From Candidatus Zhuqueibacterota bacterium (GTDB lineage Bacteria > Zhuqueibacterota > Zhuqueibacteria > Oceanimicrobiales > Oceanimicrobiaceae): a stretch of 64,000 nt of DNA. The stretch lies in assembly GCA_029262005.1 (NCBI GenBank), contig JAJDAG010000182.1, forward strand, positions 1 through 64,000. The letters run 5' to 3'. Made by a program: the position numbers and the translations under genes. Shown here piece by piece: positions 20,373 through 41,525 of this stretch. A model generated the notes under the pieces. That model was not told where the DNA came from, searched no databases, and saw only the letters and a program-made list of their open reading frames with translations. Each line of letters starts with the position of its first letter. The first letter of the stretch is position 1.

Positions 20373-21236
20373 TTGGCTACATTACGAGATATTAAGCGAC
20401 GCATTACCAGCGTCAAGAGCACGCAGCAGATCACAAAGGCAATGAAAATGGTTGCTGCTGCCAAGCTGCGTAAGGCTCAAGAAGGGCTTATGAGCGCGCG
20501 TCCCTATGCTGATGGCCTCAAACAAGTTCTTGCTCATGTTGCTGCGCAAGAGAGTGGTACCCACCCGCTTCTTGAGGTGCGTGAGACAAAGAACATCTGT
20601 TATCTGGTTATCACTTCTGATCGCGGATTATGCGGCAGCTTTAACAGCAATGTTCAACGCAGTGCTAAAAACGAAATCGATTCGCATGCGGGCGATATCA
20701 CGGTTAAGTTGATTAACTTTGGTCGTAAGGGTTATGAGTTTTTTTCCAGGCGAGATTATGACGTGGTTGAAAAACACCTCAACTTGTTCAACGAACTCAG
20801 TTTTTCGCATGCACGGCAACTCTCTGATTTCATTCAAAATATGTATATCGATAAGGCCTTCGATAAGGTAATGGTTGTGTACAACCATTTCAAATCTGCA
20901 GGTTCGCAGGTTGTGTTGAGCGAGCAGCTTTTGCCGGTTCTACCGGAGGCTCCTCTGGCCGACAAGTATAAGCCTGTAGAGTATCTGTATGAGCCTTCTG
21001 CCCGCAAGATTCTGAATGAAATCATCCCAAAAAATTTGGACATTCAAATATGGAGAGCCTTGCTTGAGTCCAATGCTGCCGAACATGCAGCGCGAATGAT
21101 TGCAATGGATTCGGCTACTGACAGTGCTCAGGATATGATCAATAATTTAACGTTGCACTATAACAAAGTTCGTCAGGCAGCAATTACTACTGAGATTTCT
21201 GAAATTGTTGGTGGTGCAGAGGCGTTACGTGGTTAA
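20373..21236 (+). CDS. atpG: ATP synthase F1 subunit gamma
   Basis: 287 aa from a TTG abutting the atpA stop codon. It begins LRDIKRRITSVKSTQQITKAMKM-like, the N-terminal helix of the rotor shaft, and ends with the conserved C-terminal helix (TLHYNKVRQAAITTEI). Translation is probably coupled to atpA because there is no spacer for an independent ribosome site. Confidence 0.96.
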   Translation: MATLRDIKRRITSVKSTQQITKAMKMVAAAKLRKAQEGLMSARPYADGLKQVLAHVAAQESGTHPLLEVRETKNICYLVITSDRGLCGSFNSNVQRSAKNEIDSHAGDITVKLINFGRKGYEFFSRRDYDVVEKHLNLFNELSFSHARQLSDFIQNMYIDKAFDKVMVVYNHFKSAGSQVVLSEQLLPVLPEAPLADKYKPVEYLYEPSARKILNEIIPKNLDIQIWRALLESNAAEHAARMIAMDSATDSAQDMINNLTLHYNKVRQAAITTEISEIVGGAEALRG

Positions 21237-21293
21237 TGCTTTGACTAGTAAATTGGTTTGCAGAGACATTTATACACTGAGGGATATTCATAA

Positions 21294-22694
<1,401 letters not shown>

Positions 22695-23193: not shown

Positions 23194-23493
23194 TTTCTGA
23201 CGCATGTTGGCAGACAACAGTTTCTTGCTTTCTATCTACGCCTTCGCCCAAATCTAATCACTTCTCGTTCTTATTTCACCCTCCTGTTAACCTTCTACTC
23301 GTCGTCTTTTTGACGCCTTCCGCTTCGGTGTCGTTTTTTGTCGTTTTAAAACCTCGTTTTAATCCCGGCACACCAGGCTTGTTATAAAAGCGATACAATA
23401 TCAAGATTGCTTGTTCTCAGACGAATTATTTTAAGACAGGAAATAAGATAGATAGCTCCCTTCATTTGATAATCATCTTTGGCAAGTTATGCT

Positions 23494-26355
23494 ATGGAAA
23501 TAAAAAATCACCGTTGCCTCATTGGTTATTGTTTATCCTTTATCTCATTTTGTTTTTTCTTAATTCTGCTGGCCTTTTCATCTGGCTTTTCTCAAGACAG
23601 AGTCAATGACTTAAGGGATGAAAATGAGTTTAAGGAGAAAGTGACTTTTTATTTAGATCAAAAAGTGCAGGCAGTATTGCATCAAATGATTCAAAACGAG
23701 AAGCTGTTGCTTGAAATGGTGCGCAACGTTACACTCGAACTTGAGCAACGGGGAAGCAAAACGATTCGTCAAAAAGATGTTCCTTTTGCCGAGCTTTACG
23801 ACTGGCCCGATCGACTCATCGCTGAATATAATAAGGAAATAGACAAGTTGACCGCCATTGTTGAAGAGGCGGGCCGTCTGCAAGTTCTTGTCGTGCAAAA
23901 AGGCAAATTGCATTTGCTGCAACCGCTCGATAATTTACAGGTTAAACTCACTGCCACGTTGAACGATGGCCGTTTTACAAAAGGGGGTCTCTATTCAAGC
24001 AATGAACTTCTTGCCCTGATAAACGACTACAATCGTGAGGTCGATGCGTTACTTGGGTTTTATGACCAGCTTGATTTGATGGCGGAAACTGTTAGAATTG
24101 ATACAGTTGAAGTCAGGGAAATGCTCGCTGACCAGAAGTCCGGAATTTCGCGTGTCTTTGATGAGTATGCCGCTGCTCCGCTGGATACAATCGGTCAGGC
24201 GTACGCTGTTGAGGTGGAACGCATAGAGTCGCTTTTGCAGGAAATACTTAAGCTAAAAGAGATTGCCCACGATAGCAATGTTCGGGTTGAGGTTGCGTTG
24301 AATCAGTTAAGCATGGAGTTACTTGCCAGCCTGGATGATCGCGTCGCCGCGATGATACAAGTTGATCATCTGGTACCATTCAGGTATCCGTTTGCTCTGA
24401 AAATGTTTAATGAGTGGCAGGCTAAGGAGTTTGTGGAATTCCGTGTCGCTTTTACCCGGCATAGAATTATTAAGGAAGCATTGCTTGCGAGCGCGTCGGC
24501 AGTAGAGAAGGGCCGGATGCTCGAGAAGGACCTCGAGGATGCGCTCGCCAGCTTTATGATTGAGGATTTTGCTTTGTCAGAGCGTAGGTTTACATGGGTT
24601 TTGCAGGACTACCATGCTGACTTTGAACTCGCAGGTTCACGCTTTTATCGCGGTGAATGTTATTTTGCGCTCAACCGCTATGAGGCTGCTCAAGCTGATT
24701 ATGAAAGTGCGGTTGAGAATGCCAACGAAACCGACTATCGCGCGGAAAGTCTTTTCAGACTCATGCAGATCGCTGACAAACACCACGATTATGCGGCAGT
24801 GGCAAGGAGATACAAGCAGGTTGAAAGCATATCGGAATTTCAAAATCAACGACTTTTAAATAAATGTCGATTTCTTGCAGCGTACAATTTTTTGGAAAGC
24901 AGAAGTTTTGTTGCGGCGGAAAGGGCATTAAGCACTATTTCCACGCATTCTCCCTACTACATCAAAGGACAGTATTTGCTGGCCATCGCCCTGTCAGGGC
25001 AAGCAGACTATGAATCAGCCATTTCGATTCTGCAATTTCTTGCTCAAAAGACAAACCAATTGGCTCGGAACGACCTGCGCAAGGGGTTGGTTGACGAGTC
25101 ACTCTTGAAGTTGGGGTACATTCATTACCAGTTACAAGATTATCGAAGAAGCTTGACATACTTTAAGCTGGCCACGGACCCGTCTGCCCGAAATCGTGGT
25201 CGCCTGGGAGTGGCCTGGGCTTATTTCAAATTGGGTAATTATGGTAAAACGATTGCGAACGCACATGCACTGCTTGATCAAGCAGTCACCTCTGAGCTTT
25301 GTTATGAGGCGCTGGTGCTGGTGGCTCAGGCCTGGCGTGAGCTTGATAATGATGATATTGCCATTGATGCTCTGAATTACGTCGCTGATGCTCAGCAGGT
25401 TTTTGATAATTCGGCAAAGTTTAATGTGGAGCGGTTGGCTATTGCCAGACAAATAAATGCTTTCGTGCATCTTGAACAGCTCGCATTGGAGCGCAATGAT
25501 ATTGACGCTTATGTTGACGTCACTGAAAACCGTGAGCGACTTGAAACGGTTCTGAAACAGTTCCGGTATTATGGCAGAACAGGCAGCACTTTGCTGGATG
25601 ATTTCGCCTTTGAGCGGGAGTCTGTACTTGGAATAATTTCGGAACTTGATGCCATGATTGCAGAGGCGAATAAAGACAATTTGCATAATGTTATGAAGCA
25701 GGCGGACGAACAGCGAATACGTTTGCTTGCAGTGCTGGATAGATACCAGGCCGATCTTGGCATTCAAAGCAAGCATTTCTTCACCGATTATCCTAATTCT
25801 GTGAAAGAAGTGGTGGAACAATATCGCAGCGAACTCCTTTCCCAGGTTTTAGGTGAAGTTGAACTCGAGCGTCGGCGCTTATTGCAGGATATTGAGCAAG
25901 TGAACAAATTGCGTTCATCTCCATTGTTCACGGGAAAAGGCCGGATTGTGAGTTCCCTGGAAATGCTTGCCGAAGATTTTTCACGCCTTGAGCGGGACAG
26001 TGATATTTTTACGACCTGGTTGTTGAACAATAGGGTTGAGCCCAGTGAGACGAATTTTTCCCAGTGGGCAAACATATCTGCTGTTGGTATCAGCGATATT
26101 ACCATGAAACGCATTAAGGAGACAGACGAGTTTATCGCTGCTCTGGCTTATAACAACAACTTTGTCACTAAGACTATTGGCAGCAGAATAGACTTCCTCG
26201 CTCAGCGTGTTCAGGCCTATGATGAGCTTATTCGTCAGCTTGAATATGAATTGCATGCGAGAAGGTTTGACGAGTATACTGAAGAAAAAGAAAGCTATTT
26301 TCGTGAAAATTATTTCGACATGCAGGAGCATGAACAAGAGGCGGTCGAGGAATGA
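23494..26355 (+). CDS. Periplasmic TPR/coiled-coil protein
   Basis: 953 aa from the ATG at 23494; a TTG five codons upstream is possible. An N-terminal signal peptide (hydrophobic core SFISFCFFLILLAFSSGFS) is followed by a largely helical, charged stretch (about 40-350). TPR-like repeats follow at about 360-680 (for example FYRGECYFALNRYEAAQADY and LGYIHYQLQDYRRSLTYF), and the C-terminal third is again coiled coil. No enzyme motif is seen. It is the first gene of the putative envelope-motor cluster, 39 bp ahead of the 1501-aa TPR protein. TPR proteins of this size accompany the Agl/Glt and Tol-like machines of other bacteria, where they scaffold periplasmic complexes; that role here is inferred. 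Confidence 0.75.
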   Translation: MEIKNHRCLIGYCLSFISFCFFLILLAFSSGFSQDRVNDLRDENEFKEKVTFYLDQKVQAVLHQMIQNEKLLLEMVRNVTLELEQRGSKTIRQKDVPFAELYDWPDRLIAEYNKEIDKLTAIVEEAGRLQVLVVQKGKLHLLQPLDNLQVKLTATLNDGRFTKGGLYSSNELLALINDYNREVDALLGFYDQLDLMAETVRIDTVEVREMLADQKSGISRVFDEYAAAPLDTIGQAYAVEVERIESLLQEILKLKEIAHDSNVRVEVALNQLSMELLASLDDRVAAMIQVDHLVPFRYPFALKMFNEWQAKEFVEFRVAFTRHRIIKEALLASASAVEKGRMLEKDLEDALASFMIEDFALSERRFTWVLQDYHADFELAGSRFYRGECYFALNRYEAAQADYESAVENANETDYRAESLFRLMQIADKHHDYAAVARRYKQVESISEFQNQRLLNKCRFLAAYNFLESRSFVAAERALSTISTHSPYYIKGQYLLAIALSGQADYESAISILQFLAQKTNQLARNDLRKGLVDESLLKLGYIHYQLQDYRRSLTYFKLATDPSARNRGRLGVAWAYFKLGNYGKTIANAHALLDQAVTSELCYEALVLVAQAWRELDNDDIAIDALNYVADAQQVFDNSAKFNVERLAIARQINAFVHLEQLALERNDIDAYVDVTENRERLETVLKQFRYYGRTGSTLLDDFAFERESVLGIISELDAMIAEANKDNLHNVMKQADEQRIRLLAVLDRYQADLGIQSKHFFTDYPNSVKEVVEQYRSELLSQVLGEVELERRRLLQDIEQVNKLRSSPLFTGKGRIVSSLEMLAEDFSRLERDSDIFTTWLLNNRVEPSETNFSQWANISAVGISDITMKRIKETDEFIAALAYNNNFVTKTIGSRIDFLAQRVQAYDELIRQLEYELHARRFDEYTEEKESYFRENYFDMQEHEQEAVEE

Positions 26356-26394: not shown

Positions 26395-29300
26395 ATGAAG
26401 CATAAGCTAGTTTCAATTGTCTTGTTTTTTGCAGTGTTTATTCCGGGCATCAGTTTGGCTCAGGAGCAGGAAAATATGGCCACTGTTCGCAAGGCTGAGA
26501 GCCTTTCTTTAACGGATACATTGATGCTGGACTATTCAAGTGATGAGTTGATAGAAATTCGCCACCAGTATCAGCGTGAAATGGAGAGATTGCTCGCTCA
26601 CAAAGATCGGCTTCGGGCCAGAGGCATTCGGGATATGGAGCGGTTTATCGCACGTCACTCAAACAGCCCGGTGTTGGATAAGATACTGGTGCGGCTTGCC
26701 GGTTTATATTATGAGGAAGCGCAAAGAGAATATGCCATTGCTTTGAATTCCTACCAGGACGATGCTTCGGCACCTGCCGATAGCGCCTGGGGAGAGGGAA
26801 CAGGATTTGACGACCATGAGCCGAACATCGACCACTCACGGTCAATAGAACTTTATCAGCGTGTAATCGGTGATTTTGTAAATAGCCCGTTTGTTGAGGA
26901 TGCGCTATACAACAAAGCTTTTTTATTGGAAGAACAGGGCGATAGACCCCAAGCCACTAAAACGTACGAATTACTAACGGAGAAATTTCCTGATAGCCCG
27001 TATGGCGCAGATGCTTTGGTTCGCGTTGCTGAGTACTATTTTGACCCGCCTGTTTCAGATATTGAAACGGCGGTTACTTATTATGAGCAAGTGCTCAAAC
27101 ATCGTGACAGCCCACTTTACGATGTCGCTTTGTACCGACTGGGCTGGGCTTATTATAGGATGAGCGATTATCCTACGGCTGTTTCCTATTTCACTTTACT
27201 GGCGGATGACATAGATAGAGTGAAGAAATATGATCCTGCTGTAAAGCATCACTTTCCAGCCGTCCGCGATGAGGCAATCGAATACATAGGCATTAGTTTT
27301 CTTGATCTGGGTGGTGCGCAGGAAGCTGCTCACTACTTTGAGCAGATAGGCGGGCGCAGATATGGGTATGAAGTATTCACGAAGATTGGCGACGCCTACA
27401 TGGATGTGAAGGAAGAGTACGATGAAGCAATACAGGCGTATGAATTCCTGCTTGCGATGTATCCTGAAGACGCACAAGCACCCTTTATTCAGGCACGAAT
27501 AGCCCAGGCATATCTACGCCTCGAGGATGAGCAAATGGCATTTGCCAGCAGGGAAAAATTGTTCAAGGCTTATGGCTCAAATAGCGCATGGGGAAAAACT
27601 CTCACGAGCACGGAGAAGGACAAAGGCCTTGCACTTGCAGAGCGTTCACTTCGGGAGAATATTAATCATTTGTTTAAAATGGCTGAAGAGAACAGTGATT
27701 CAACCCTTTATGTCCAGGCGGTTGAAGAAAGTCGTTCCTACATTAAAGCCTTCCCTCTGGATACAAGTGCGGTGTTGGTGCACTGGAATCTGGCGCTATG
27801 CCTTGACTTGAAGCTTAAGACACTTGAAGCGGCGTTTTATGAATATATAAAGATTAGTAACCTCTATGCAGGCAGTCGCTTCCAGAAACAGGCGGCGAAA
27901 AATGCTATTGCCCTTGCTGATGAACAGGTGCGGCTCCTGCTCAATCCATCTGCGGACACGACGGTTGTGGCAGTCACCAAAAATGGCCTGCAAAATAGAC
28001 TTCCTGAGAAGTCCGAGCGGCAGGCGCTTTCAAAGCAAGATGAGCAACTGCTTCTGGCCCTGCGTAATTATATTCGTAATTTTCCTCACGAAGAAGACGC
28101 GCCCAAGATGCTGGCCAAGGCAGGTTCAATTTATTATGAGAGAGGATTTTATCGGGAGTCAATTCGCTATTTTAAAACTTTGGCAAAACATTTTCATGAG
28201 TCACCCGATGTGACTTATGCCCGCTTTATCACCATGGAGAGTTATTTTGGAAATGGTGATTACAAGAGTACCGAGTTGCTTGCTAAAAAGATCAGAACTG
28301 TTGGCACCGATTACGATAGGCAGGCAAACAAACGTTTGGCTGAAGCCGTTTTTCTCCAGGCGAAATCAGCCGCTGATTCTGCCAACCATCTTGTTGCAGC
28401 CAATGAATATTTGCGTGTTGTGGCCGAAGTGCCTGCTGCTGAATTTGCTGATTTGGCGTTGTTTAACGCTGCCCTTGAGTTTGAAAAAAGTGAACGTTTC
28501 GTGGATGCCATTGCCACCTACGAAAACCTGGTTCAAAATTACCCTGAAAGCGATCATCTCCATTCTGCGCTTAAAAACCTTGCTTTTGATTTTCGTGAAG
28601 TGGAGGACTTTGAAAGTGCCGGCGTAACCTATGTACGCCTTGCAGCTATTGATACCAGTGATGATGCGGTAAAAGAATCGCTTTATAATGCCAGTGTTTC
28701 GTTTGTCCAAGCCAAGGCCTGGAAGCAGGCGATCAACGTTAACAATGCCTATGCGCAGCGTTTTCCAAAGGCCGATGATGCGGCCGACCTGTTGTTTGAT
28801 AATGCGTCCTACTATCTCAAATTTGGAGATTTGGTTAGCGCCGACGAAATTTACGAGCGCTTTGTCCAGCAATTTCCAGGCTCCCCGAAGGTCATCGAGT
28901 CGCACTATTATCGGGGTGAGTATTTCAAGGAGTTTGGACGACCTGAAATGGCGCGAAAACAATTTGCCCAGGCAATCGAGAAAGCCGAGTTGTTTAGAGC
29001 CGACAGTGCAGCGGTTAATGGCTTCTTTGTCGCAGAAGCGCTGTTTCAACTCGCTGGTCTGGATTATATGAAATACGATGAAATTGAGTTCGCTGATAAT
29101 TTAGATAAACAGAAGGCGCTGAAAAAACAATTGCTCACCGATATCATTGGTAATTATACCAAAGTCATCTCATTTGGCACGGCCCGTTTGCCGGAGGCCA
29201 CTTATAAAATCGGTTTGACTTATGAAGAATTCGCGCAGTCCTGGGCAAAGCAAAAAATAGAGCAAACTGAAGTGAATCAGCGTATTGCTGCTCGAAATAA

Positions 29301-30900
29301 CATCAATAATACGGCTGCTGCACTTTTTGATAAAGCGATCGTAGCTTATAAAAGCGGCGCAAGCGCATTAGGAAAGTTCATCGAACGGCAGCAGGATAAA
29401 TCAAAAAAAGAGATTCAGAACACCGATGAGGGCAGGCCGTCAATTGCCGACTCCACACTTGGACTGGCTGAAATTTGGATGAGCCGATGCAACGATAAGA
29501 TTTCAGAGAGTCTGTTTGCCGTTGCAGAATTACACAGCGCCTCAATGCATGAGCTGCTTGACGCCCCACCTCCTGCAGACATTAGTGAACTTGAAGGCCT
29601 GGTTTATCAGGTTGAAGTTTTGCGGAAAGTGATAGCACCACTTGCCCAAAAGGTGATTGAAGTACACTTGCGAAATCTAGAGGAAAGTAAAACACTTCAG
29701 CTTGAAAACCAGTGGGTGAAACGTTCGCGCGAAACAGTTTCGGTTATAAGAAATTTAATACCGTCTGAAACAGACAGATTAAGCAGAGCGGCTTTAAGTG
29801 CCTATGTTGAACTGGTACCCACTTTTGAGAACATGATCGAAAAGGATGGAGACGGCGCTTTGGCTCTGGCTGAGCAGATTCCGGCTTTGCTTGAATTGAG
29901 CACGACTCTGGCCGCAGCTTCTGCAAGTGGCTTTAAGGCAAATCTTGAATCTGTCGCGCAGGCTTCCTCCGGGAGGGATTCAATGTTTACTGCTGAGACT
30001 GAAATGCGTTTGATGCAATGCATTTATTCCTACGCAATTTTGACAGAATCATTGGCAGCAATCGCGGATAAACGGCGCGAACACTATGAAACATTGTTTT
30101 GGAAAACAGAACAAATCGTTTTTGAAGAAGCTTATCTTACCTTTGATGATGCGTATTTTGCCTTACATGACGGCAGTAACGAATTGCTGAATTTTGGCTT
30201 TGCAGCCAGTCAATTTATTCGTGATAATCAGGAATGGAGAAAAAAGATCGGCCTGGCGCTTCTACGCCGGAATCCTGAGGAATATAGCCAAAAATTTGGC
30301 TTGACAATTGACTCCCGATACGTACCTAGTTCCACAAATTGGCTGGCAAATGCAACTTATGAGGAGGGGTGGTCAACTTCGGAATTCATGGATGGGAAGT
30401 GGCACTTCGCCCATGGGGAAGAGTCGGCATCGCATTTGGTTGATGCCACCACACTGTCAATTTGGTGTGCTGCAATAGAAGACAGCCTTGGTAACAGGAG
30501 CAGGGAACAAACAGCAACGGCTGCGATATCTGTGAACGCCTCGAGTTCGTGCGACACAGTTTATTTCAGAAAATCATTTGACGTTTCCGGGTTGTTGGTT
30601 TCAGCAAAAGTTCACGTTCATTTCGACAATCCGGTTGTGCTTTATGTCAATGGACAGGTAGCTGATGCAGAGGGTGAAGTCGGTTCTGAAGAAGGCGTTA
30701 CCTTCGAATTGACGGACCATGTGCAGCAGGGTAACAATACAATCGCAATTCAGGCGGCTGGAAAAAAGGAAACCACGGCAGGTCTGGAGTCTTTGTTGGA
30801 AATTCAGAGCATTGCAGACTGGGGTCGTTTGCTGGAAGACACCACGGGGTTGACTGGCTCCGGGGGTGATAAAGAGAAATCGGAAGGTGCGGCTGAATAG
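26395..30900 (+). CDS. Giant periplasmic TPR protein with C-terminal beta-sandwich
   Basis: 1501 aa with a clear signal peptide (MKHKLVSIVLFFAVFIPGISLA) and GGAAGGTG upstream of the ATG. Many TPR or Sel1-like repeats with the YYxxGDY/YPxSxxAxxAL pattern run from about residue 80 to 1000, as in BamD/YbgF/outer-membrane lipoprotein TPR families. A helical region without repeats follows. The last about 130 residues contain YFRKSFDVSG and VVLYVNGQVAD, which look like a galactose-binding-type jelly roll as found in glycosidases and adhesins. That combination is unusual and suggests contact with glycan or peptidoglycan. It precedes the ExbB/ExbD/TonB-like genes on the same strand. Confidence 0.78.
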   Translation: MKHKLVSIVLFFAVFIPGISLAQEQENMATVRKAESLSLTDTLMLDYSSDELIEIRHQYQREMERLLAHKDRLRARGIRDMERFIARHSNSPVLDKILVRLAGLYYEEAQREYAIALNSYQDDASAPADSAWGEGTGFDDHEPNIDHSRSIELYQRVIGDFVNSPFVEDALYNKAFLLEEQGDRPQATKTYELLTEKFPDSPYGADALVRVAEYYFDPPVSDIETAVTYYEQVLKHRDSPLYDVALYRLGWAYYRMSDYPTAVSYFTLLADDIDRVKKYDPAVKHHFPAVRDEAIEYIGISFLDLGGAQEAAHYFEQIGGRRYGYEVFTKIGDAYMDVKEEYDEAIQAYEFLLAMYPEDAQAPFIQARIAQAYLRLEDEQMAFASREKLFKAYGSNSAWGKTLTSTEKDKGLALAERSLRENINHLFKMAEENSDSTLYVQAVEESRSYIKAFPLDTSAVLVHWNLALCLDLKLKTLEAAFYEYIKISNLYAGSRFQKQAAKNAIALADEQVRLLLNPSADTTVVAVTKNGLQNRLPEKSERQALSKQDEQLLLALRNYIRNFPHEEDAPKMLAKAGSIYYERGFYRESIRYFKTLAKHFHESPDVTYARFITMESYFGNGDYKSTELLAKKIRTVGTDYDRQANKRLAEAVFLQAKSAADSANHLVAANEYLRVVAEVPAAEFADLALFNAALEFEKSERFVDAIATYENLVQNYPESDHLHSALKNLAFDFREVEDFESAGVTYVRLAAIDTSDDAVKESLYNASVSFVQAKAWKQAINVNNAYAQRFPKADDAADLLFDNASYYLKFGDLVSADEIYERFVQQFPGSPKVIESHYYRGEYFKEFGRPEMARKQFAQAIEKAELFRADSAAVNGFFVAEALFQLAGLDYMKYDEIEFADNLDKQKALKKQLLTDIIGNYTKVISFGTARLPEATYKIGLTYEEFAQSWAKQKIEQTEVNQRIAARNNINNTAAALFDKAIVAYKSGASALGKFIERQQDKSKKEIQNTDEGRPSIADSTLGLAEIWMSRCNDKISESLFAVAELHSASMHELLDAPPPADISELEGLVYQVEVLRKVIAPLAQKVIEVHLRNLEESKTLQLENQWVKRSRETVSVIRNLIPSETDRLSRAALSAYVELVPTFENMIEKDGDGALALAEQIPALLELSTTLAAASASGFKANLESVAQASSGRDSMFTAETEMRLMQCIYSYAILTESLAAIADKRREHYETLFWKTEQIVFEEAYLTFDDAYFALHDGSNELLNFGFAASQFIRDNQEWRKKIGLALLRRNPEEYSQKFGLTIDSRYVPSSTNWLANATYEEGWSTSEFMDGKWHFAHGEESASHLVDATTLSIWCAAIEDSLGNRSREQTATAAISVNASSSCDTVYFRKSFDVSGLLVSAKVHVHFDNPVVLYVNGQVADAEGEVGSEEGVTFELTDHVQQGNNTIAIQAAGKKETTAGLESLLEIQSIADWGRLLEDTTGLTGSGGDKEKSEGAAE

Positions 30901-30949: not shown

Positions 30950-31306
30950 ATGAGAATTTTTTTCGCTTTGCTTTTTTCTGGAATTCTATCTGTTTGTGTG
31001 GCTCAGGAGAGCGGCACAACAGATGAAAAGAATGGCTCCACGGGAAAAAAGGGAGAAATCGTGCTTGACGATATTTTGATTGAAGGGAAAGTGGAGAAGC
31101 CCAATGTTATGATCATGCCCAATCGCCAATCTTCTCAGTTTGCGGAGAGCGACTTTCCGGAAAGATCTTTCATTGAAGAAATTGTTAGAGTGCCGCCCAG
31201 GGCAGTGTTGTTCGATAAGAATTTTGACAAATTACAACGGGTTGACGCACTCAATGTGCTTTTAAAGAAATTGCTTGCCAAACAGAAAGAAGGTAATAGC
31301 AAGTAA
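30950..31306 (+). CDS. Small secreted protein of unknown function
   Basis: 118 aa from the ATG at 30950 (AGTGGGA upstream). The start is chosen because it gives a typical signal peptide MRIFFALLFSGILSVCVAQE. The open frame reaches back to 30866 but would overlap the previous gene. The mature part is short and charged, with LDDILIEGKVEKPNVMIMP near the middle; a TonB-like or secretin-adaptor motif of this type is seen beside AgmX-like systems, but I do not assign a family. Located between the giant TPR gene and exbB. Confidence 0.6.
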   Translation: MRIFFALLFSGILSVCVAQESGTTDEKNGSTGKKGEIVLDDILIEGKVEKPNVMIMPNRQSSQFAESDFPERSFIEEIVRVPPRAVLFDKNFDKLQRVDALNVLLKKLLAKQKEGNSK

Positions 31307-31587: not shown

Positions 31588-32238
31588 ATGATTGATGTTT
31601 TCGATGCATTTCGTCCCGGTGCTTCCGGCTGGGTTTTCATGTGGGCGCTGTTGGTTACAGCAGCATTTATGGTCGCTATTTCGGTTGAGCGCTGTTACTA
31701 CATCTGGATAAGATCCAATATCAATGCCAGAAAATTCATGGTGGAAATCAGAAAACTTGTTCAAGATGGAAAATACAAAAAGGCTGTTGAGTTGTGCGAG
31801 TCTGTTGACCATAAGGCACTTCCACGTGTGGTCAAGTCTTGTTTACAGTTGATGGCCCGTAACAAAACGGCTGATTTTCGCACCATTCAAAACTCGGTTG
31901 ACGAAGGAACCCTGGAGGTCATTCCAAAGCTGCAGGAACGCACTGGCTTTCTGGCCATGATCGGTAATGTTGCAACTCTTATCGGATTGATGGGGACAAT
32001 CTATGGCCTGATACTGGCATTTAATGCCGTGTCTGAAGCGGGCTATGATGCTGCTCAGAAGTCGGCCTTTTTGGCTGCCGGCATCTCAACAGCCATGAAT
32101 ACCACGCTTGTTGGGCTGGCCATTGCTGTGCCGGCGATAATGATTTACACGCTTATTCACAACAAGACCGTTCAGTTAATCGACGAAATCGATGAGCATA
32201 CGGTGAAACTTATTAACTTGATGACAGGGAACAACTAA
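31588..32238 (+). CDS. MotA/TolQ/ExbB proton channel family protein
   Basis: 216 aa, inner membrane, with three membrane segments (about residues 13-36, 130-150 and 165-190). TM2 contains ATLIGLMGTIYGLILAF and TM3 STAMNTTLVGLAIAVPA, the conserved pore-lining segments of TolQ/ExbB. AAGGAGT precedes the ATG. It should form the pentameric stator with the two downstream ExbD proteins and convert proton flow into motion across the periplasm. Confidence 0.92.
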   Translation: MIDVFDAFRPGASGWVFMWALLVTAAFMVAISVERCYYIWIRSNINARKFMVEIRKLVQDGKYKKAVELCESVDHKALPRVVKSCLQLMARNKTADFRTIQNSVDEGTLEVIPKLQERTGFLAMIGNVATLIGLMGTIYGLILAFNAVSEAGYDAAQKSAFLAAGISTAMNTTLVGLAIAVPAIMIYTLIHNKTVQLIDEIDEHTVKLINLMTGNN

Positions 32239-32243
32239 GAGCA

Positions 32244-32783
32244 ATGGCATATCAACCTTCACGTCGGCAAACACGGCTTACTTCAGAGGCTTTGGAGCCA
32301 AATATGGCCCCCATTATGAACCTTATGGTCGTGTTGATTCCGTTACTGCTTTCATCAGCCCAACTAATCAAGATTAGCATTATTGAGATGAATTTGCCCC
32401 CGGCCGCGAGCGAAGAAGCTTTGACTTCCAACAAGATAGAGTCAAAGAAAAAGAAAGTCAAACTCGATTTGGCTATTACGATTTCGGATAAAGGTTTTTA
32501 TCTATCCGGCCTGCCTTCCGTGTTAAAAAATAAAAAGGGAAAGATCGCCATACCAAAAAAAGATGGTGAGTATGATTATCAACGTCTCGCGAAAGAACTT
32601 TATGCAATCAAAGGGCGGGTGGCCGGGCGCTTCCCGGATGCGAATGCGGTAACGATTCAAGCGGAGTCGCAAATCGACTACCAGACTCTCGTGACCACTA
32701 TGGATTCGGCACGCGCCATCAGGATTGATGGAGAAAATATAACTATGTTTCCAAAAGCATCGATGAGCGCTATGATGTTGTAG
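32244..32783 (+). CDS. ExbD/TolR family protein, variant lacking the channel Asp
   Basis: 179 aa with a short cytosolic N-terminus, one membrane helix and a periplasmic domain. Aligned to E. coli TolR (PLLDVLLVLL), the helix reads PIMNLMVVLI, so the proton-binding Asp23 position is Asn26 here. The periplasmic part keeps the ExbD pattern, with PDANAVTIQAESQIDYQTLVTTMD near the C-terminus. The gene starts 5 bp after exbB. With only this subunit a canonical proton pathway would not work; pairing with the next ExbD is the likely solution. Confidence 0.88.
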   Translation: MAYQPSRRQTRLTSEALEPNMAPIMNLMVVLIPLLLSSAQLIKISIIEMNLPPAASEEALTSNKIESKKKKVKLDLAITISDKGFYLSGLPSVLKNKKGKIAIPKKDGEYDYQRLAKELYAIKGRVAGRFPDANAVTIQAESQIDYQTLVTTMDSARAIRIDGENITMFPKASMSAMML

Positions 32784-32816
32784 AAACTCGTAATTTAAAC
32801 ACTGTGAGGAGTATCA

Positions 32817-33320
32817 ATGGCATACGTACCATCACGTCGAAAGCGACACAACACTTTTGTTAGCAATGTGACGCTGAACTTAACTTCGATGATGGACATG
32901 TTTACCATCATTTTGGTTTTTCTTTTGAAGACCTACGCAACAGAGGGGAGTCTGACTCAACCAACGGATTCCTTGACTTTGCCAAAATCAACGGTGACGG
33001 CACCACCGGAAGTTGCATTGGATTTGGTTGTTTCCAACGAAGTGGTTATGGTCAATGACAAACCTATTGTTGCCTGGGATAAAGTTAAAAAGCAGAAAGG
33101 CTTTGTAATTGAGGCTTTGCGCGATGAGTTGCTTTATTATGCGACCGAGGCAAACCGTATGAAAAAAGAGATGGGTTCTGATTTTTCAGGCAAGATCATC
33201 ATCCAGGGAGATAAGGATATTGCGTATAAAGACCTGGTGAAGATTATGGCGACTTGCGGTGTATCGGAATATCCGAATATGAGACTGGTCGTTTATCAAA
33301 AGGAAGAGGATGGATTTTGA
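32817..33320 (+). CDS. ExbD/TolR family protein with channel Asp
   Basis: 167 aa. It shares the N-terminal MAYxPSRR with the previous ExbD but keeps Asp27 in SMMDMFTIILVFLL, the residue that takes up protons in TolR/ExbD. The periplasmic domain contains KIIIQGDKDIAYKDLVKIM. GGAG precedes the ATG. It overlaps the next gene by 11 bp. It probably forms a heterodimer with the Asn variant inside the TolQ-like pentamer. Confidence 0.9.
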   Translation: MAYVPSRRKRHNTFVSNVTLNLTSMMDMFTIILVFLLKTYATEGSLTQPTDSLTLPKSTVTAPPEVALDLVVSNEVVMVNDKPIVAWDKVKKQKGFVIEALRDELLYYATEANRMKKEMGSDFSGKIIIQGDKDIAYKDLVKIMATCGVSEYPNMRLVVYQKEEDGF

Positions 33321-34476
33321 TATGAGAAGTCAAGGCAAAAAAAACAAAGCGCCTAGCACACAAGCGACCCGGGCGGGCGTTTCAACAGTACAGTCACCAC
33401 TTAACACAGATGAAAACAGTTCTCGGTTTGACAAAGTGTTTTCTGATTTTGTGGACAAGCGTTTTCTCGGCATACTCTCGTGCTCGATTGTCTTGCATGT
33501 TATGCTGGTTACTTATTTTTTGCTTAATCCCATTTCAGACGAATTTGAGTTAAAGGGCATAACCCAAATTCAAAAAGAATTGGCGCGGACGTTAAAAGAA
33601 CGTGAGGAACGCAAGGAAGAGCAGTTTGTTCAGTTTGACTTCAAGGAAAAGAAACCGGACGGCCTGGCCAAAGGAGCTCCCAAGAAGGCAGGCAAGGCAA
33701 AGTCGAAACAAAGGGCCTCACTGAAAGTACCAAAAAAGAAAGTGGCAAAAGCAGTTGCCCGGAGTAAAGCCACGGGCAAGCGTGCAGGAGGAGTTCGCCG
33801 GACACGTAGAAAGTCTCTGTCACGTTCCCAAATCGCTACCAACGTGGCCAAAAAAGGGGTTTTGGCTGTTCTCACCAGCACTGCCGGCGCTGCTACTGGT
33901 GCGGAAGTGGCCGATTTATTAGGTGAAGTCAATACCACGTCTGGAGATTTGGACAAGGCAATGTCACAAGTCTCAGAAATTAGAGGCGGTAGGAGCGGAG
34001 ACGGCGATCGAAAAAAAGGTGGAAATGTTCGCGGTAGTCGTGCTTCCGGCGGTGGAAATATCAATGGCGTTGTTTCAGAGTTGGGCGATGTTTCCTCTGA
34101 ATCGTTTGAGCGTTCAGGAGAGCTGCTGGTTTCGCCATCAGGCGCATTCATTGAAGGCGGTGAAGGTGGCAGCGGAATAGCAGGCAGGCGCCAGGAAGAT
34201 ATTCAGGCCGTTATTCTGAAGCACAATAAGTCCGTGCAGCATTGTTATGAACGTGAACTTAAACGAAATCCTAATCTGCGTGGCAAAATTACCATCCGCT
34301 TTACGATTACGGCAGGCGGCGCAGTAAAAAAAGTTGAGCTCGTTTCCTCTACTCTCGGCAATCGAAAGGTTGAACGTTGCGTTATTGGCCGACTTGGCCG
34401 TTGGAATGATTTCGGTAAAATCGATGCTTCATACGGAACAACGACCATTCGTCAATCTTATGCCTTTGGCTACTGA
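33310..34476 (+). CDS. TonB-like protein with AgmX/PglI C-terminal domain
   Basis: 388 aa from the ATG at 33310 (GGAAGAGG upstream, overlapping exbD2); a second ATG lies four codons on. A cytosolic N-terminus of about 50 residues leads to one membrane helix (LGILSCSIVLHVMLVTYFLL, residues 53-72). The periplasmic linker at 112-172 is very rich in Lys/Arg, unlike the Pro-rich TonB linker. A Gly-rich stretch (225-292) follows, then the AgmX/PglI domain (296-388) with conserved Cys312 and Cys357 that could form a disulfide. In Myxococcus, AgmX-type proteins belong to the gliding motor; here it should transmit force from the ExbB/ExbD stator. Confidence 0.85.
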   Translation: MDFDMRSQGKKNKAPSTQATRAGVSTVQSPLNTDENSSRFDKVFSDFVDKRFLGILSCSIVLHVMLVTYFLLNPISDEFELKGITQIQKELARTLKEREERKEEQFVQFDFKEKKPDGLAKGAPKKAGKAKSKQRASLKVPKKKVAKAVARSKATGKRAGGVRRTRRKSLSRSQIATNVAKKGVLAVLTSTAGAATGAEVADLLGEVNTTSGDLDKAMSQVSEIRGGRSGDGDRKKGGNVRGSRASGGGNINGVVSELGDVSSESFERSGELLVSPSGAFIEGGEGGSGIAGRRQEDIQAVILKHNKSVQHCYERELKRNPNLRGKITIRFTITAGGAVKKVELVSSTLGNRKVERCVIGRLGRWNDFGKIDASYGTTTIRQSYAFGY

Positions 34477-37163: not shown

Positions 37164-38015
37164 ATGAGAGCTGTTACAAGAACTCTCTTACTCTGCTCAA
37201 CTTTAACACTTGTTTCTCTATTCATGGTCAGTGATAATGTGTTTGCGCAAGAAATGACTATGAAAGAATACAAGATCCAGTTACAAGAGTGGGCAGACAG
37301 AGAGATGGCAGCTAAAGATGGAATTGCCAAGTTAGATGCAGACATTGAGTCGGTTAAGGCGCAAGTTGCAGCAGTTGAAGGTCAAACTTCAGACACTTGG
37401 AGCGAAATCTATGCGGCGATTGGTGTTAGTGAGGCAGATGTAAACGCCTATCGTGATGAACTCAATGGACTTGGAAGAGATCTTAACGCACTTGGTGCGT
37501 TGGCTCCAGAAGACCTTTGGAAGCGAAGAAAAGAAATTGATGATATTGATGCAAAGCTTGCGGAGCTAAAAGGAAGTCGCATTTATTCATTGTCGGAAAT
37601 GCGCGACCTGGCTGCTTCCCTTGAGGGTAAGATTGCACAACTGAGAGCGAAAATGCCAAAGGGCATGTACGATGAGTACACAGTCCTTCGCGGTGATTAC
37701 CTCTGGAGAATCGCAAAAAAGTCTGATATCTATAATGACCCGTTTGCGTGGATTCGTATCTATTCTTATAATCGCGAGCAGATTAAAGAAGCTGATATGA
37801 TTTATCCTGATCAAATTTTCAAGATTCATCGCGAGAATAGCCCGAACGAATATCTTGTTGGCAGTGGTGATAATTTGTCTAATATCGCCGGCAGCATGGA
37901 TGTTTTGGGTGACCCAACAAAATGGCGTGAGCTTTATGAACTTAATAAAGATGCCATTGGTGATGAGCCAAGTTTGATTTACCCTCATCAGGTTATCAAG
38001 ATTCCTTCGAACTAA
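37164..38015 (+). CDS. Secreted protein with two C-terminal LysM domains
   Basis: 283 aa. The signal peptide ends VSDNVFA-QE. A helical region (about 30-165) is followed by LysM 1 (YTVLRGDYLWRIAKKSDIYN to IYPDQIFKIH) and LysM 2 (YLVGSGDNLSNIAGSMDVLG to IYPHQVIKIPS). LysM domains bind peptidoglycan N-acetylglucosamine, so the protein is likely a periplasmic cell-wall binder. AGGAGGG precedes the ATG. It pairs with the lipoprotein upstream and is followed by a very strong terminator. Confidence 0.88.
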   Translation: MRAVTRTLLLCSTLTLVSLFMVSDNVFAQEMTMKEYKIQLQEWADREMAAKDGIAKLDADIESVKAQVAAVEGQTSDTWSEIYAAIGVSEADVNAYRDELNGLGRDLNALGALAPEDLWKRRKEIDDIDAKLAELKGSRIYSLSEMRDLAASLEGKIAQLRAKMPKGMYDEYTVLRGDYLWRIAKKSDIYNDPFAWIRIYSYNREQIKEADMIYPDQIFKIHRENSPNEYLVGSGDNLSNIAGSMDVLGDPTKWRELYELNKDAIGDEPSLIYPHQVIKIPSN

Positions 38016-38110
38016 GTGGAGATAAATCGTTTTGGGCCAGTTGTGATAGCCCAATAGATTTGATAATTCTCACTTGAGAATTTGTTCGACAATTTTGAAA
38101 TAAGTATTTT

Positions 38111-38158
38111 AGCTCTTAGCCGGATCAGTAACATGCTGATCCGGCAAGAGCTTTTTTA
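38111..38158 (+). terminator. Strong intrinsic terminator
   Basis: AGCTCTT (38111-38117) plus GCCGGATCAG (38119-38128) pair with CTGATCCGGC (38136-38145) and AAGAGCT (38146-38152). The loop is 7 nt with a single bulged A, and TTTTTTATT follows. It ends the lipoprotein-LysM operon ahead of phoH. Confidence 0.93.
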
Positions 38159-38198
38159 TTAGAGAGCACTATCCAGGAAATTAAAGTAGGGTTTTAGT

Positions 38199-39185
38199 TT
38201 GAGTCCGGATGTAAAAAGGAAGATCTCAATAGGCGGTATTAACCAGTTAAGATTGTTTGGTTTGCAGGACAGGAATCTACGCCGTTTACAACAGGCATTT
38301 TCTGTTAGTTTGGTCGCGCGTGGGCAACAGGTGTTTTTGAGCGGCGACAAAGAAAATGTTGAGCGTGCTGAAAAAGCTTTCGAAGAACTAATTGCAATCG
38401 CGAGCAGGCAGGCTGAGATATCTGAGAGCGACCTGGAAACCATTGTGTCGATGGTTGATGGCACCGGCAAATTACAAGAGGACTCAGAGAACGGTCAGGA
38501 TGATATTATCCTGTACAAGAAGGATGGTTTTATAAAGCCGAAGACTCTTGGGCAAAGAGCATTTTACCAGGCATCTTTAAACAATGATGTACTTTTTGTG
38601 ATCGGCCCCGCTGGAACAGGCAAGACCTTTCTTGCTGTTGCTTTGGCTGTGGCTGCTTTGCGTGATAAATTGGTTGATCGAATTGTCCTGACCCGGCCTG
38701 CAGTGGAAGCTGGTGAGCGTCTCGGTTATCTTCCGGGCGACTTCCGAGAAAAAATTGATCCATATCTAGCGCCGCTTTACGATGCTCTACACGATATGAT
38801 TCCACCAGACAAATTGAAACGATATCTTGAGTCAAGTATTATAGAAATTGTTCCGCTTGCTTATATGCGGGGGCGTACCTTAAACAATGCATTTGTCATT
38901 CTAGACGAAGCACAAAATACAACATTTCATCAAATGAAGATGTTTTTGACACGCCTCGGGATTAGTTCAAGGGCCATTATTACTGGAGATATTACGCAAA
39001 TTGATTTGCCTGGCGTAGGGTCATCCGGCCTGGTACAAGTACAATCGATTTTACCTCCAATCGAAGGTATTGAGTTTGTTTATATGAAGGATACTGATGT
39101 GGTTCGGCACCGCCTGGTTCGCGAAATTATAAGGGCCTACGACAATTATGAGAATAACAAAACTCACAAAAATGACAAGAAGTAA
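38199..39185 (+). CDS. phoH: PhoH family ATPase (PhoH-like, YbeZ type)
   Basis: 328 aa from a TTG at 38199. An N-terminal KH-like segment is followed by the PhoH ATPase with P-loop GPAGTGKT (about residues 135-142) and Walker B VILDEAQNTT. YbeZ/PhoH proteins act with YbeY in rRNA processing and ribosome quality control. Here phoH, pgpH and ybeY are consecutive, a well-known order in Firmicutes and FCB bacteria. The next start follows 6 bp after the stop. Confidence 0.93.
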   Translation: MSPDVKRKISIGGINQLRLFGLQDRNLRRLQQAFSVSLVARGQQVFLSGDKENVERAEKAFEELIAIASRQAEISESDLETIVSMVDGTGKLQEDSENGQDDIILYKKDGFIKPKTLGQRAFYQASLNNDVLFVIGPAGTGKTFLAVALAVAALRDKLVDRIVLTRPAVEAGERLGYLPGDFREKIDPYLAPLYDALHDMIPPDKLKRYLESSIIEIVPLAYMRGRTLNNAFVILDEAQNTTFHQMKMFLTRLGISSRAIITGDITQIDLPGVGSSGLVQVQSILPPIEGIEFVYMKDTDVVRHRLVREIIRAYDNYENNKTHKNDKK

Positions 39186-39191
39186 TTCCCT

Positions 39192-41525
39192 TTGAATGAC
39201 CCCAAGTTTACATACCGGTTTCGCCGTACCTTACAGCAGGCTTTTGACTCTCTGCAGAAACGTACTGTGTGGAGACAAACTTTACAAGCCACCATCGTTT
39301 TGCTCTCCATTGTTGCTACTTCTTTTATGTTTCCATCTGTACAGTCGTTTCAGTTTTCAAATCTGAAAGACGGGGATGTTTATACAGGACAAGAGATCAT
39401 TGCACCGTTCACTTTTTATATTAACAAGAGTGACGATGAAGTGAATCGAGATCGTAAAGCATCCTCTGAAAAAATTCCTCTGGTTTTCGTAAAGGCGGAT
39501 ACTGTTGAGAGGTTGTCTTTGCGCAAGTTTGACGAGCTGTTTCAGGCTTTTTCTCTTGTGCAGGAACTAGCGGTTCCCGACTCAATAAAGTCAAGACGCA
39601 TCCGTGATATTTTGGATAGTGAGTCGATTGTTATTGAAGAGGGGCACTTGAAGTATCTTTTTAGTGTTCCCGTTCTTGACCTGCCAAACACGAAAGCAAA
39701 GAAGGTTGAAGATGTAAACGGCTCTGGTAGTATGGAACGTTTCAAACAGCACTTGCGGATTATTGTACTAGACGTGCAGGCTATTGGGCTGCTTGATATG
39801 AATATGAGCAATATTCCAATTTACATCGATAAGTTGTCGGTTATTTCTGACAAAGGCGAAATTTTGGAAAATGTTGAGCGCTTTTATAAGTTAGACAACT
39901 ACCGTGAAGTTGTTTTACAAAAGTTACGGCAGACGTTTTCCCAAAATGAAGTTGCAGTAAAAATTGGTTATCCGATTGTCACAGGGTTTTTAACTCCAAA
40001 CCTGTTGCTTGATGAGCTTGAGACTGAAAAACGTATCAATGAGGCTGTTGCAAGTGTGGCACTATCCAAGGGAATTGTGCTTGAAAATGAGCGGATTGTT
40101 AACACGCATGAACTGATCACCCCACAAATTCTTGAAAAACTCAACTCACTTGCAACTGCCAAATCAGAGAGAGAAGCGAGTGAGGGCGGCACAAAGCTGA
40201 TTTTGCCATATATCGGCCGATTATTGACAATTACTCTTGCCTTTTCGTTCATGCTTCTTTTTCTTCTTGTTGAAAGAAAGGAAATTGCTACCAGTCTCAA
40301 AAAGCTGTTAATGATTTTTATTATTTTTTTATTTGCGATCACGGTCACGTATTTCATCAATCGTTTCGGCTTTTCGACAAATCTGAAATTTCTTATTCCT
40401 ATTTCAATAGCTTCAATGCTGCTGACAATATTTTTTGATAATCGCAGTGCATTTATGGGCACAATAACGCTTAGCATTATCATCGCAGCGATGCGTGGGA
40501 ATGACTTCGGAATGATGATTGTGTCCATGTTTGTCGGCACAATGTCAATGTTTGCTGTGCGTGAAATTCAAGCTCGGAACTGGATTTTAAAGGGCATCCT
40601 TTACATTTCCGGAGCGTATATCGTGTCCATTGGTGCAACTGAACTTCTGAAACACACTGAGTTTGAGGATTTGTGGGATATGTGGAGCTATGGCATCATC
40701 AATGGGTTGTTGTCACCCATTCTGGCTTATGGCCTCATGATTATTTTTGAATACGTTTTTCAGACGACAACCAATTCTACTTTGCTGGAATTGTCAGACT
40801 TGAACAAGCCCTTGTTGCGGAACCTGGCAATACGAGCGCCAGGTTCTTATCACCACAGCATTATGGTAGGAAACCTCTCTGAAGCAGCGTCTGAAGCCAT
40901 TGGCGCCAATGCCCTTCTTGCTCGTGTTGCATCCTATTATCATGATATTGGTAAAATGGACAAGCCGGAATATTTTGTTGAAAATCAGAAGGCTGGCAGA
41001 AATCCTCATGAGAAACTTGCTCCCAGCATGAGTTGCCTTATTTTGATTAATCATGTTAAGAGGGGGTTGGAGATTGCGGAGAAACAGAATTTGCCTGCTG
41101 AGATTCGTGCCTTTATTCCGCAGCATCACGGCACCAATTTGATTCGATATTTCTATCAAAAAGCAATAGAAAATGCAGAGGATGGAGAGGTGGTCGATGA
41201 AGCGAATTTTCGCTATGGCGGGCCAACGCCACAATCCAAGGAAGCGGGCATTGTTATGTTGGCTGATGCCGTTGAAGCCGGATCCCGAGCAATGAAAGAC
41301 CCTTCAATCAGCCGTGTTCGCAGTATGATTGATTCGATTATACAAGAAAGATTGCTGGAGAATGAGTTGGATGAGTGCCCCTTGACCATTGGTGATTTGA
41401 AGTTAATCAGGGAGAGTTTTGTTGGTACCCTTGCGGGCATGTTCCATGGAAGAATTGAGTACCCTAAGCAGGAAGATAAATCTGTCCAACGAAATAGCAA
41501 AAAAGGCGCGGAAGCTCAAAATTGA
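39192..41525 (+). CDS. pgpH: HD-domain phosphodiesterase with 7TM region (PgpH-like)
   Basis: 777 aa from a TTG. An N-terminal membrane anchor, a long extracytoplasmic 7TMR-HDED domain (about 60-330) and seven membrane helices (about 335-535) lead to a cytosolic HD domain. Its metal motif is visible as YHHSIMVGN and YYHDIGK (His-Asp near 583-584). PgpH of Listeria degrades cyclic-di-AMP, so a second-messenger hydrolase is the likely role; the ligand of the outer domain is unknown. Its 3' end overlaps ybeY. Confidence 0.9.
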   Translation: MNDPKFTYRFRRTLQQAFDSLQKRTVWRQTLQATIVLLSIVATSFMFPSVQSFQFSNLKDGDVYTGQEIIAPFTFYINKSDDEVNRDRKASSEKIPLVFVKADTVERLSLRKFDELFQAFSLVQELAVPDSIKSRRIRDILDSESIVIEEGHLKYLFSVPVLDLPNTKAKKVEDVNGSGSMERFKQHLRIIVLDVQAIGLLDMNMSNIPIYIDKLSVISDKGEILENVERFYKLDNYREVVLQKLRQTFSQNEVAVKIGYPIVTGFLTPNLLLDELETEKRINEAVASVALSKGIVLENERIVNTHELITPQILEKLNSLATAKSEREASEGGTKLILPYIGRLLTITLAFSFMLLFLLVERKEIATSLKKLLMIFIIFLFAITVTYFINRFGFSTNLKFLIPISIASMLLTIFFDNRSAFMGTITLSIIIAAMRGNDFGMMIVSMFVGTMSMFAVREIQARNWILKGILYISGAYIVSIGATELLKHTEFEDLWDMWSYGIINGLLSPILAYGLMIIFEYVFQTTTNSTLLELSDLNKPLLRNLAIRAPGSYHHSIMVGNLSEAASEAIGANALLARVASYYHDIGKMDKPEYFVENQKAGRNPHEKLAPSMSCLILINHVKRGLEIAEKQNLPAEIRAFIPQHHGTNLIRYFYQKAIENAEDGEVVDEANFRYGGPTPQSKEAGIVMLADAVEAGSRAMKDPSISRVRSMIDSIIQERLLENELDECPLTIGDLKLIRESFVGTLAGMFHGRIEYPKQEDKSVQRNSKKGAEAQN

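Follow-up and report, generated by a model that had tools for sequence, protein, structure and literature searches.

Models of the motors MotAB, ExbBD and TolQR assume two identical Asp residues that alternate. The locus described here, from a window that is the whole 64,000-nucleotide stretch of Candidatus Zhuqueibacterota DNA analyzed, resembles E. coli ExbBD and TolQR in its ExbB/TolQ-type pentamer gene, its ExbD/TolR fold and its TonB-like transducer with a Ser-x3-His motif, but whereas the E. coli systems have a homodimeric axle with two identical Asp, the window has two axle genes and one Asp. The two Asp occupy non-equivalent positions in the E. coli structures, and each proton is assumed in models to turn the axle by 36 degrees (PMC12215075); current models likewise combine a turn of 36 degrees per proton with Asp in unlike positions (PMC12905483).

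The AglRQS motor of Myxococcus xanthus and its Glt proteins resemble the window in having one TolQ-like and two TolR-like genes, a GltG/GltJ-like transducer and TPR proteins, one of those in the window being weakly GltC-like. Both AglQ and AglS are described as having an Asp (PMC9389320, going by the description there), which ExbD1 of the window lacks. According to that source AglS has an Asp of its own, and it is not known if the dimers that AglQ and AglS form are hetero- or homodimers (PMC9389320); another source suggests that the two might act as coupled subunits of a single motor (PMC9120999). The AglQ D28N change alone abolishes conductance (PMC3858216); because losing one Asp is fatal in AglRQS, either tolerance would have evolved in the family of the window or the arrangement differs. 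Genes related to the Agl-Glt core complex are clustered in non-Deltaproteobacteria, including one member of the Fibrobacteres (PMC3169522). The heterologous tolR-like pairs with vWA force transducers described in PMC12204202 occur with TPR, tolQ-like and two unlike tolR-like genes, as in the window, but with a different transducer, and the related pore-helix vWA pairs are stated to have one Asp per monomer; the section of that source on these pairs mentions no Asp-less member. In Fibrobacter succinogenes, FSU_2400-2403 (ExbB-ExbD-ExbD-TonB), which is raised on cellulose (PMC6851124), has the same layout as the window. Searches of a set of open-access papers showed no earlier description of Asp-less ExbD pairs, and the Asp-less partner is what is new here compared with the earlier two-subunit proposal for AglQ and AglS.

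The features of the locus are as follows.

23479..26355, + strand: TPR protein, weakly GltC-like (NCBIfam GltC 38.8 bits, cut-off 450), probable upstream member of the cluster
26395..30900, + strand: large TPR protein of 1501 aa in the conserved module (TPR models)
30950..31306, + strand: small protein with a signal-like N-terminus
31588..32238, + strand: ExbB/TolQ/MotA-type pentamer subunit (PF01618, E 1.4e-23)
32244..32783, + strand: ExbD1, Asp-less ExbD/TolR-type axle subunit of 179 aa (PF02472, E 3.5e-13)
32319..32321, + strand: Asn26 codon AAC of ExbD1, at the site of the proton-carrying Asp
32817..33320, + strand: ExbD2, Asp-bearing axle subunit of 167 aa (PF02472, E 8.3e-14)
32895..32897, + strand: Asp27 codon GAC of ExbD2, predicted sole proton carrier
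33310..34476, + strand: TonB-like force transducer with an AgmX/PglI C-terminal domain (NF033768, E 1.7e-25)

ExbD1 begins MAYQPSRR..PIMNLMVVLIPLLL and ExbD2 begins MAYVPSRR..SMMDMFTIILVFLL, the former being 12 residues longer in the window. The claim of the preliminary description that Asn26 in ExbD1 stands against Asp27 in ExbD2 is borne out by the ORF coordinates, the codons and the Pfam matches, and its helix register is correct, as alignment of a profile built from 15 ExbD1-type sequences to solved ExbD and TolR chains places the ExbD1 Asn over their Asp (TPvmN over TPFID and VPLLD). E. coli ExbD and TolR have an essential Asp at the position equivalent to Asn26. Chance or misregister as the source of Asn26 is ruled out by the alignment to the solved chains, and assembly or sequencing error by the recurrence of the split in 200 pairs. 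ExbD1 has the ExbD/TolR profile and the periplasmic fold but not the protonatable membrane Asp, and because of Asn26 and the absence of Asp from this site in 209 of the 210 readable ExbD1 relatives it is classed here as an Asp-less homologue and not among the proton-carrying ExbDs. Profile, fold and membrane Asp are all present in ExbD2. PDB sequence searches had only ExbD and TolR among their matches, and a search of a plasmid collection with ExbD1 gave no match. The ExbB protein matches its family profile and retains the channel threonines, its GLMGTIYGL and MNTT motifs being intact, with their GT and TT equated with the channel threonines of PMC12215075 by motif position only.

To count the split across relatives, 398 loci were scanned with family profiles and duplicates were removed by the last 90 residues, which left 212 distinct ExbD2 genes. 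Asp is at the site in all 212 of them, while the ExbD1 upstream carries Asn 200 times, Gly seven times, Ser twice and Asp once, where the counts cover the retrieved loci, part of all ExbD2 matches in the phylum searches, and the sequences are related, come mostly from metagenome assemblies and do not represent independent events. In the remaining two cases ExbD1 is truncated before the helix (L130) or ExbD2 starts 155 bases into its contig, so that the upstream gene lies beyond the contig end (L125). With 209 of 210 readable ExbD1 lacking Asp and all 212 ExbD2 having it, the split is far from anything chance would give. The first 29 orthologous loci (L015-L043) gave Asn in 28 and Asp in one (L043), and the ExbD1 query had a match in 57 of 60 relatives. 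Sampling bias from the ExbD1 query was rejected as the source of the Asn excess, since a recount of the 169 pairs reached via ExbD2 or PF02472 gave the same picture (158 N/D, 7 G/D, 2 S/D, 1 D/D and 1 unreadable). The N/D split is thus conserved in orthologous operons (200 of 212), and there is strong support for the suggestion that the lineage could share it as a general design, with the pair reaching beyond the lineage into other phyla.

The ExbD2 search, in which 80 named loci were kept from 201 relatives, recovered loci named KSB1, Calditrichota/Calditrichaeota, Chitinispirillaceae, Chitinivibrionales, Fibrobacter, Raymondbacteria and Latescibacteria, together with some MAGs under other labels. 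ExbD2 matches were obtained in 77 of 82 genomes of the window's own phylum (one of them weak), and, with the phyla outside it named by inference from the named loci within each, in 112 of 120 genomes of the phylum of the Fibrobacter locus L114, in 36 of 40 of that of L127 and in 4 of 64 (two strong) of that of the Latescibacteria locus L130. The N/D family is accordingly found in KSB1, Calditrichota, Fibrobacterota and a few Latescibacterota, with two operon types in the window's phylum. The genome of the window has a second N/D operon of the same kind on contig 33, and 12 of its 13 listed PF02472 matches have an ExbD-type membrane helix, 10 with Asp and two with Asn, both of the latter being ExbD1 of this family. 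Solo genes are confined to contig ends (ExbD1 without ExbD2 in L020; ExbD2 without ExbD1 in L125 and L265), and the pairing of ExbD1 with ExbD2 is obligate as far as seen.

The history of the site was examined in a tree of 221 rows with the site column left out, made by a quick method without bootstrap and containing some long branches and three rows labelled D1 that duplicate conventional pairs. All 134 family ExbD1 rows lie on one side of one branch (SH-aLRT 95, starred), the family ExbD2 rows also lie on one side of one branch (SH-aLRT 99), and the two together are set apart from conventional ExbD (SH-aLRT 96). Because the tree groups all 134 ExbD1 rows without help from the site, Asp was probably lost once, anciently, in ExbD1. 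The presence of Asp in both proteins, which the preliminary description had put forward as counting against the split, does occur, in one of 212 cases (L043), yet this only D/D member groups with the Asn rows (88); nested within the Asn clade, its Asp is best read as a reversion. A single-base error would not account for it, as several neighboring residues are changed too. In L043 and in L096, which is on the same contig, the ExbD1 helix shows several changes towards the conventional ExbD helix, and the ExbD2 helix is changed as well.

The codons at the ExbD1 site in 193 pairs are AAC in 92 and AAT in 90, with seven Gly codons, two Ser codons, one Asp codon and L130 unreadable. The Asn codons are one transition away from Asp codons, yet Asp is found in only one of 210 readable pairs, and this scarcity argues for selection against Asp in ExbD1. 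Other residues one step away (K, H, T, I and Y) are absent from the readable pairs, and from the single Asp and these absences the site appears to be held small and neutral. By conservation it is the 11th of 139 columns in ExbD1 and the top column in ExbD2, and a proline of the ExbD1 membrane helix is kept in 189 of 192 rows. The seven Gly pairs fall in two places of the tree. Gly is found in the ExbD1 of L262, L330, L332, L337 and L338, in the phylum of the Fibrobacter locus L114, and the G/D pairs of Fibrobacterota are possibly the ExbD pair of FSU_2400-2403.

Conventional two-ExbD operons among the retrieved loci are D/D in seven clusters and D/G in one (L212), and hence, within these loci, the N/D arrangement is not general to two-ExbD operons. 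The exception is an ExbB-ExbD-ExbD operon of the conventional Ton type, and it is the downstream one of its two ExbD proteins that carries Gly in place of the Asp (L212, L339 and L340, genomes G067 and G306). The Gly gene of L212 has a relative, 73% identical, that also has Gly, and the two make up 2 of 40 genomes in all. This Gly marks an independent loss, and Asp has been lost from one partner at least twice.

The gene order TPR-ExbB-ExbD1-ExbD2-TonB/AgmX is conserved. Sixty named loci have more than 4 kb of upstream sequence, and among them relatives were found of ExbB in 60 (one ExbB in each), of the TonB-like protein in 56, of the large TPR protein in 55 and of the small protein in 29. 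The TonB-like gene overlaps ExbD2 by 11 bases, and its product has the Ser-x3-His motif in its N-terminal membrane helix and an AgmX/PglI C-terminal domain that scores above the cut-off (89 bits against 40), while its matches to GltG (partial, 65.9 bits, cut-off 650) and GltJ (34.5 bits, cut-off 450) are far lower than those models call for. The large TPR protein had no match to a Glt model, and the small protein had none in family model searches. We take the module to be a relative of the Agl-Glt core complex, although its bit scores fall short of what firm membership would need. Close upstream of the cluster (20373-22694) are genes for the gamma and beta subunits of F1 ATP synthase, and a LysM-type protein, a PhoH-like ATPase and an HDIG-domain protein are encoded downstream (37164-41525).

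An AlphaFold model of the two axle proteins, tethered as a read-through chain of ExbD1, a spacer and ExbD2 and run with 50 paired relatives, has a pTM of 0.74 and a mean pLDDT of 78.7, with the membrane helices poorly defined (block means ~57-72) and the periplasmic parts confident. It suggests, as judged from pTM, that the periplasmic domains are placed relative to each other, but the tether forces the chains together and ExbDs dimerize anyway, so the support that this pTM gives to a mixed axle is weak. The periplasmic domain of ExbD1 in the model resembles TolR 5by4 (Z 9.8) and ExbD 8p9r (Z 8.3), and that of ExbD2 resembles ExbD 8vgd_B (Z 7.9). A Foldseek search with the tethered model gave no match at E 0.001 or better; its high-probability matches were ExbD and TolR domains. 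Covariation across 212 ExbD1-ExbD2 pairs placed 23 of the top 50 couplings between the proteins, about what an unselective score gives, and pairs within a protein score no differently from pairs between the two, a sign of shared ancestry. The inter-protein pairs disappeared when ExbD2 was permuted within groups, but this also removes co-inheritance and thus says nothing on contact. Membrane-helix pairs at equal height showed no enrichment (p 0.16, effective number of sequences 27).

We propose, with a probability of roughly 0.68, that the locus encodes a proton-driven envelope motor of the ExbB/ExbD kind (5:2) in which the axle helices come from two genes and only ExbD2 has a protonatable Asp. 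Such a mixed axle is supported by the maintenance of an Asp-less ExbD1, the completeness of the ExbD2 Asp, the strict pairing and the intact ExbB threonines. The D/D member L043 and the loss of conductance in AglQ D28N count against it. From the obligate pairing, the single ExbB and the pTM of the tethered model we infer that both ExbDs sit in one ExbB pentamer, where they would form a heterodimer (5:1:1) with Asp27 of ExbD2 as the sole protonation site of the motor. ExbD1 would keep the pore helix with a small neutral residue at the site (Asn, or Gly or Ser in some lineages), and this residue would act like an Asp that is always protonated, making ExbD1 a permanently neutral half; MotB D22N has been described as protonation-mimetic (PMC9389320). 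One turn would then take five proton steps, each of 72 degrees, in place of the ten 36-degree steps of a two-site motor; alternatively the axle may rock rather than spin. Gene content suggests that, as in Agl-Glt, the TonB/AgmX-like protein would pass the force on to an outer-membrane partner that contains TPRs.

It is also conceivable, if unlikely, that ExbD2, which alone has all the canonical features, occupies the pentamer as an ordinary homodimer with two Asp, and that ExbD1 is an accessory in separate or mixed inactive complexes that regulates the motor or holds it to the cell wall. The specialization of ExbD1, seen in its extra 12 residues in the window and its conserved helix proline, would agree with such a role, but nothing would keep a helix that lies outside the pore at Asn, Gly or Ser, and away from Asp, for so long, and the two genes are never seen apart away from contig ends. 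That same constancy makes it highly improbable that ExbD1 is decaying, irrelevant to proton flow, with Asn as a frozen accident: the site does vary, with Asn, Gly, Ser and in one case Asp, but only ten of the 139 columns are more conserved, no residue one step from Asn turned up apart from Ser and Asp, and ExbD1 is retained beside ExbD2 in four phyla.

Only slightly less improbable is a mixed axle in which Asn26 or a nearby residue joins in proton transfer, giving a functionally two-site motor. Asn is indeed the commonest residue (200 of 210 readable pairs), but Gly replaces it in seven pairs in two places of the tree, and neither Asn nor Gly has a side chain that titrates at physiological pH.

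For the single-site mixed axle, which we prefer, a wider reading is put forward tentatively, at a little under even odds: a clade-wide 5:2 motor with a single proton site, its heterodimeric axle turning or rocking with one subunit locked in a protonated-like state, in five rather than ten steps per turn, kept in four phyla since one ancient loss, with the Gly of the conventional Ton pair, seen in 2 of 40 genomes, as an independent case beside it. If a whole clade runs on one Asp, natural proteins with simple N-to-D and D-to-N changes would allow direct tests of how many protons a turn takes, whether alternation is needed and what role axle asymmetry plays.

Two further loci in the genome of the window are related to these proteins. 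The 13th PF02472 match (L013, contig 10) is a lipoprotein-like ORF of 109 aa; its periplasmic domain is of the ExbD type, and no ExbD membrane helix was evident in the ORF. On contig 111 (L009/L011) an ExbB-like protein has a long C-terminal extension resembling an immunoglobulin-type bacterial repeat, and its gene is followed by those of two short ExbD-like proteins, both with Asp.
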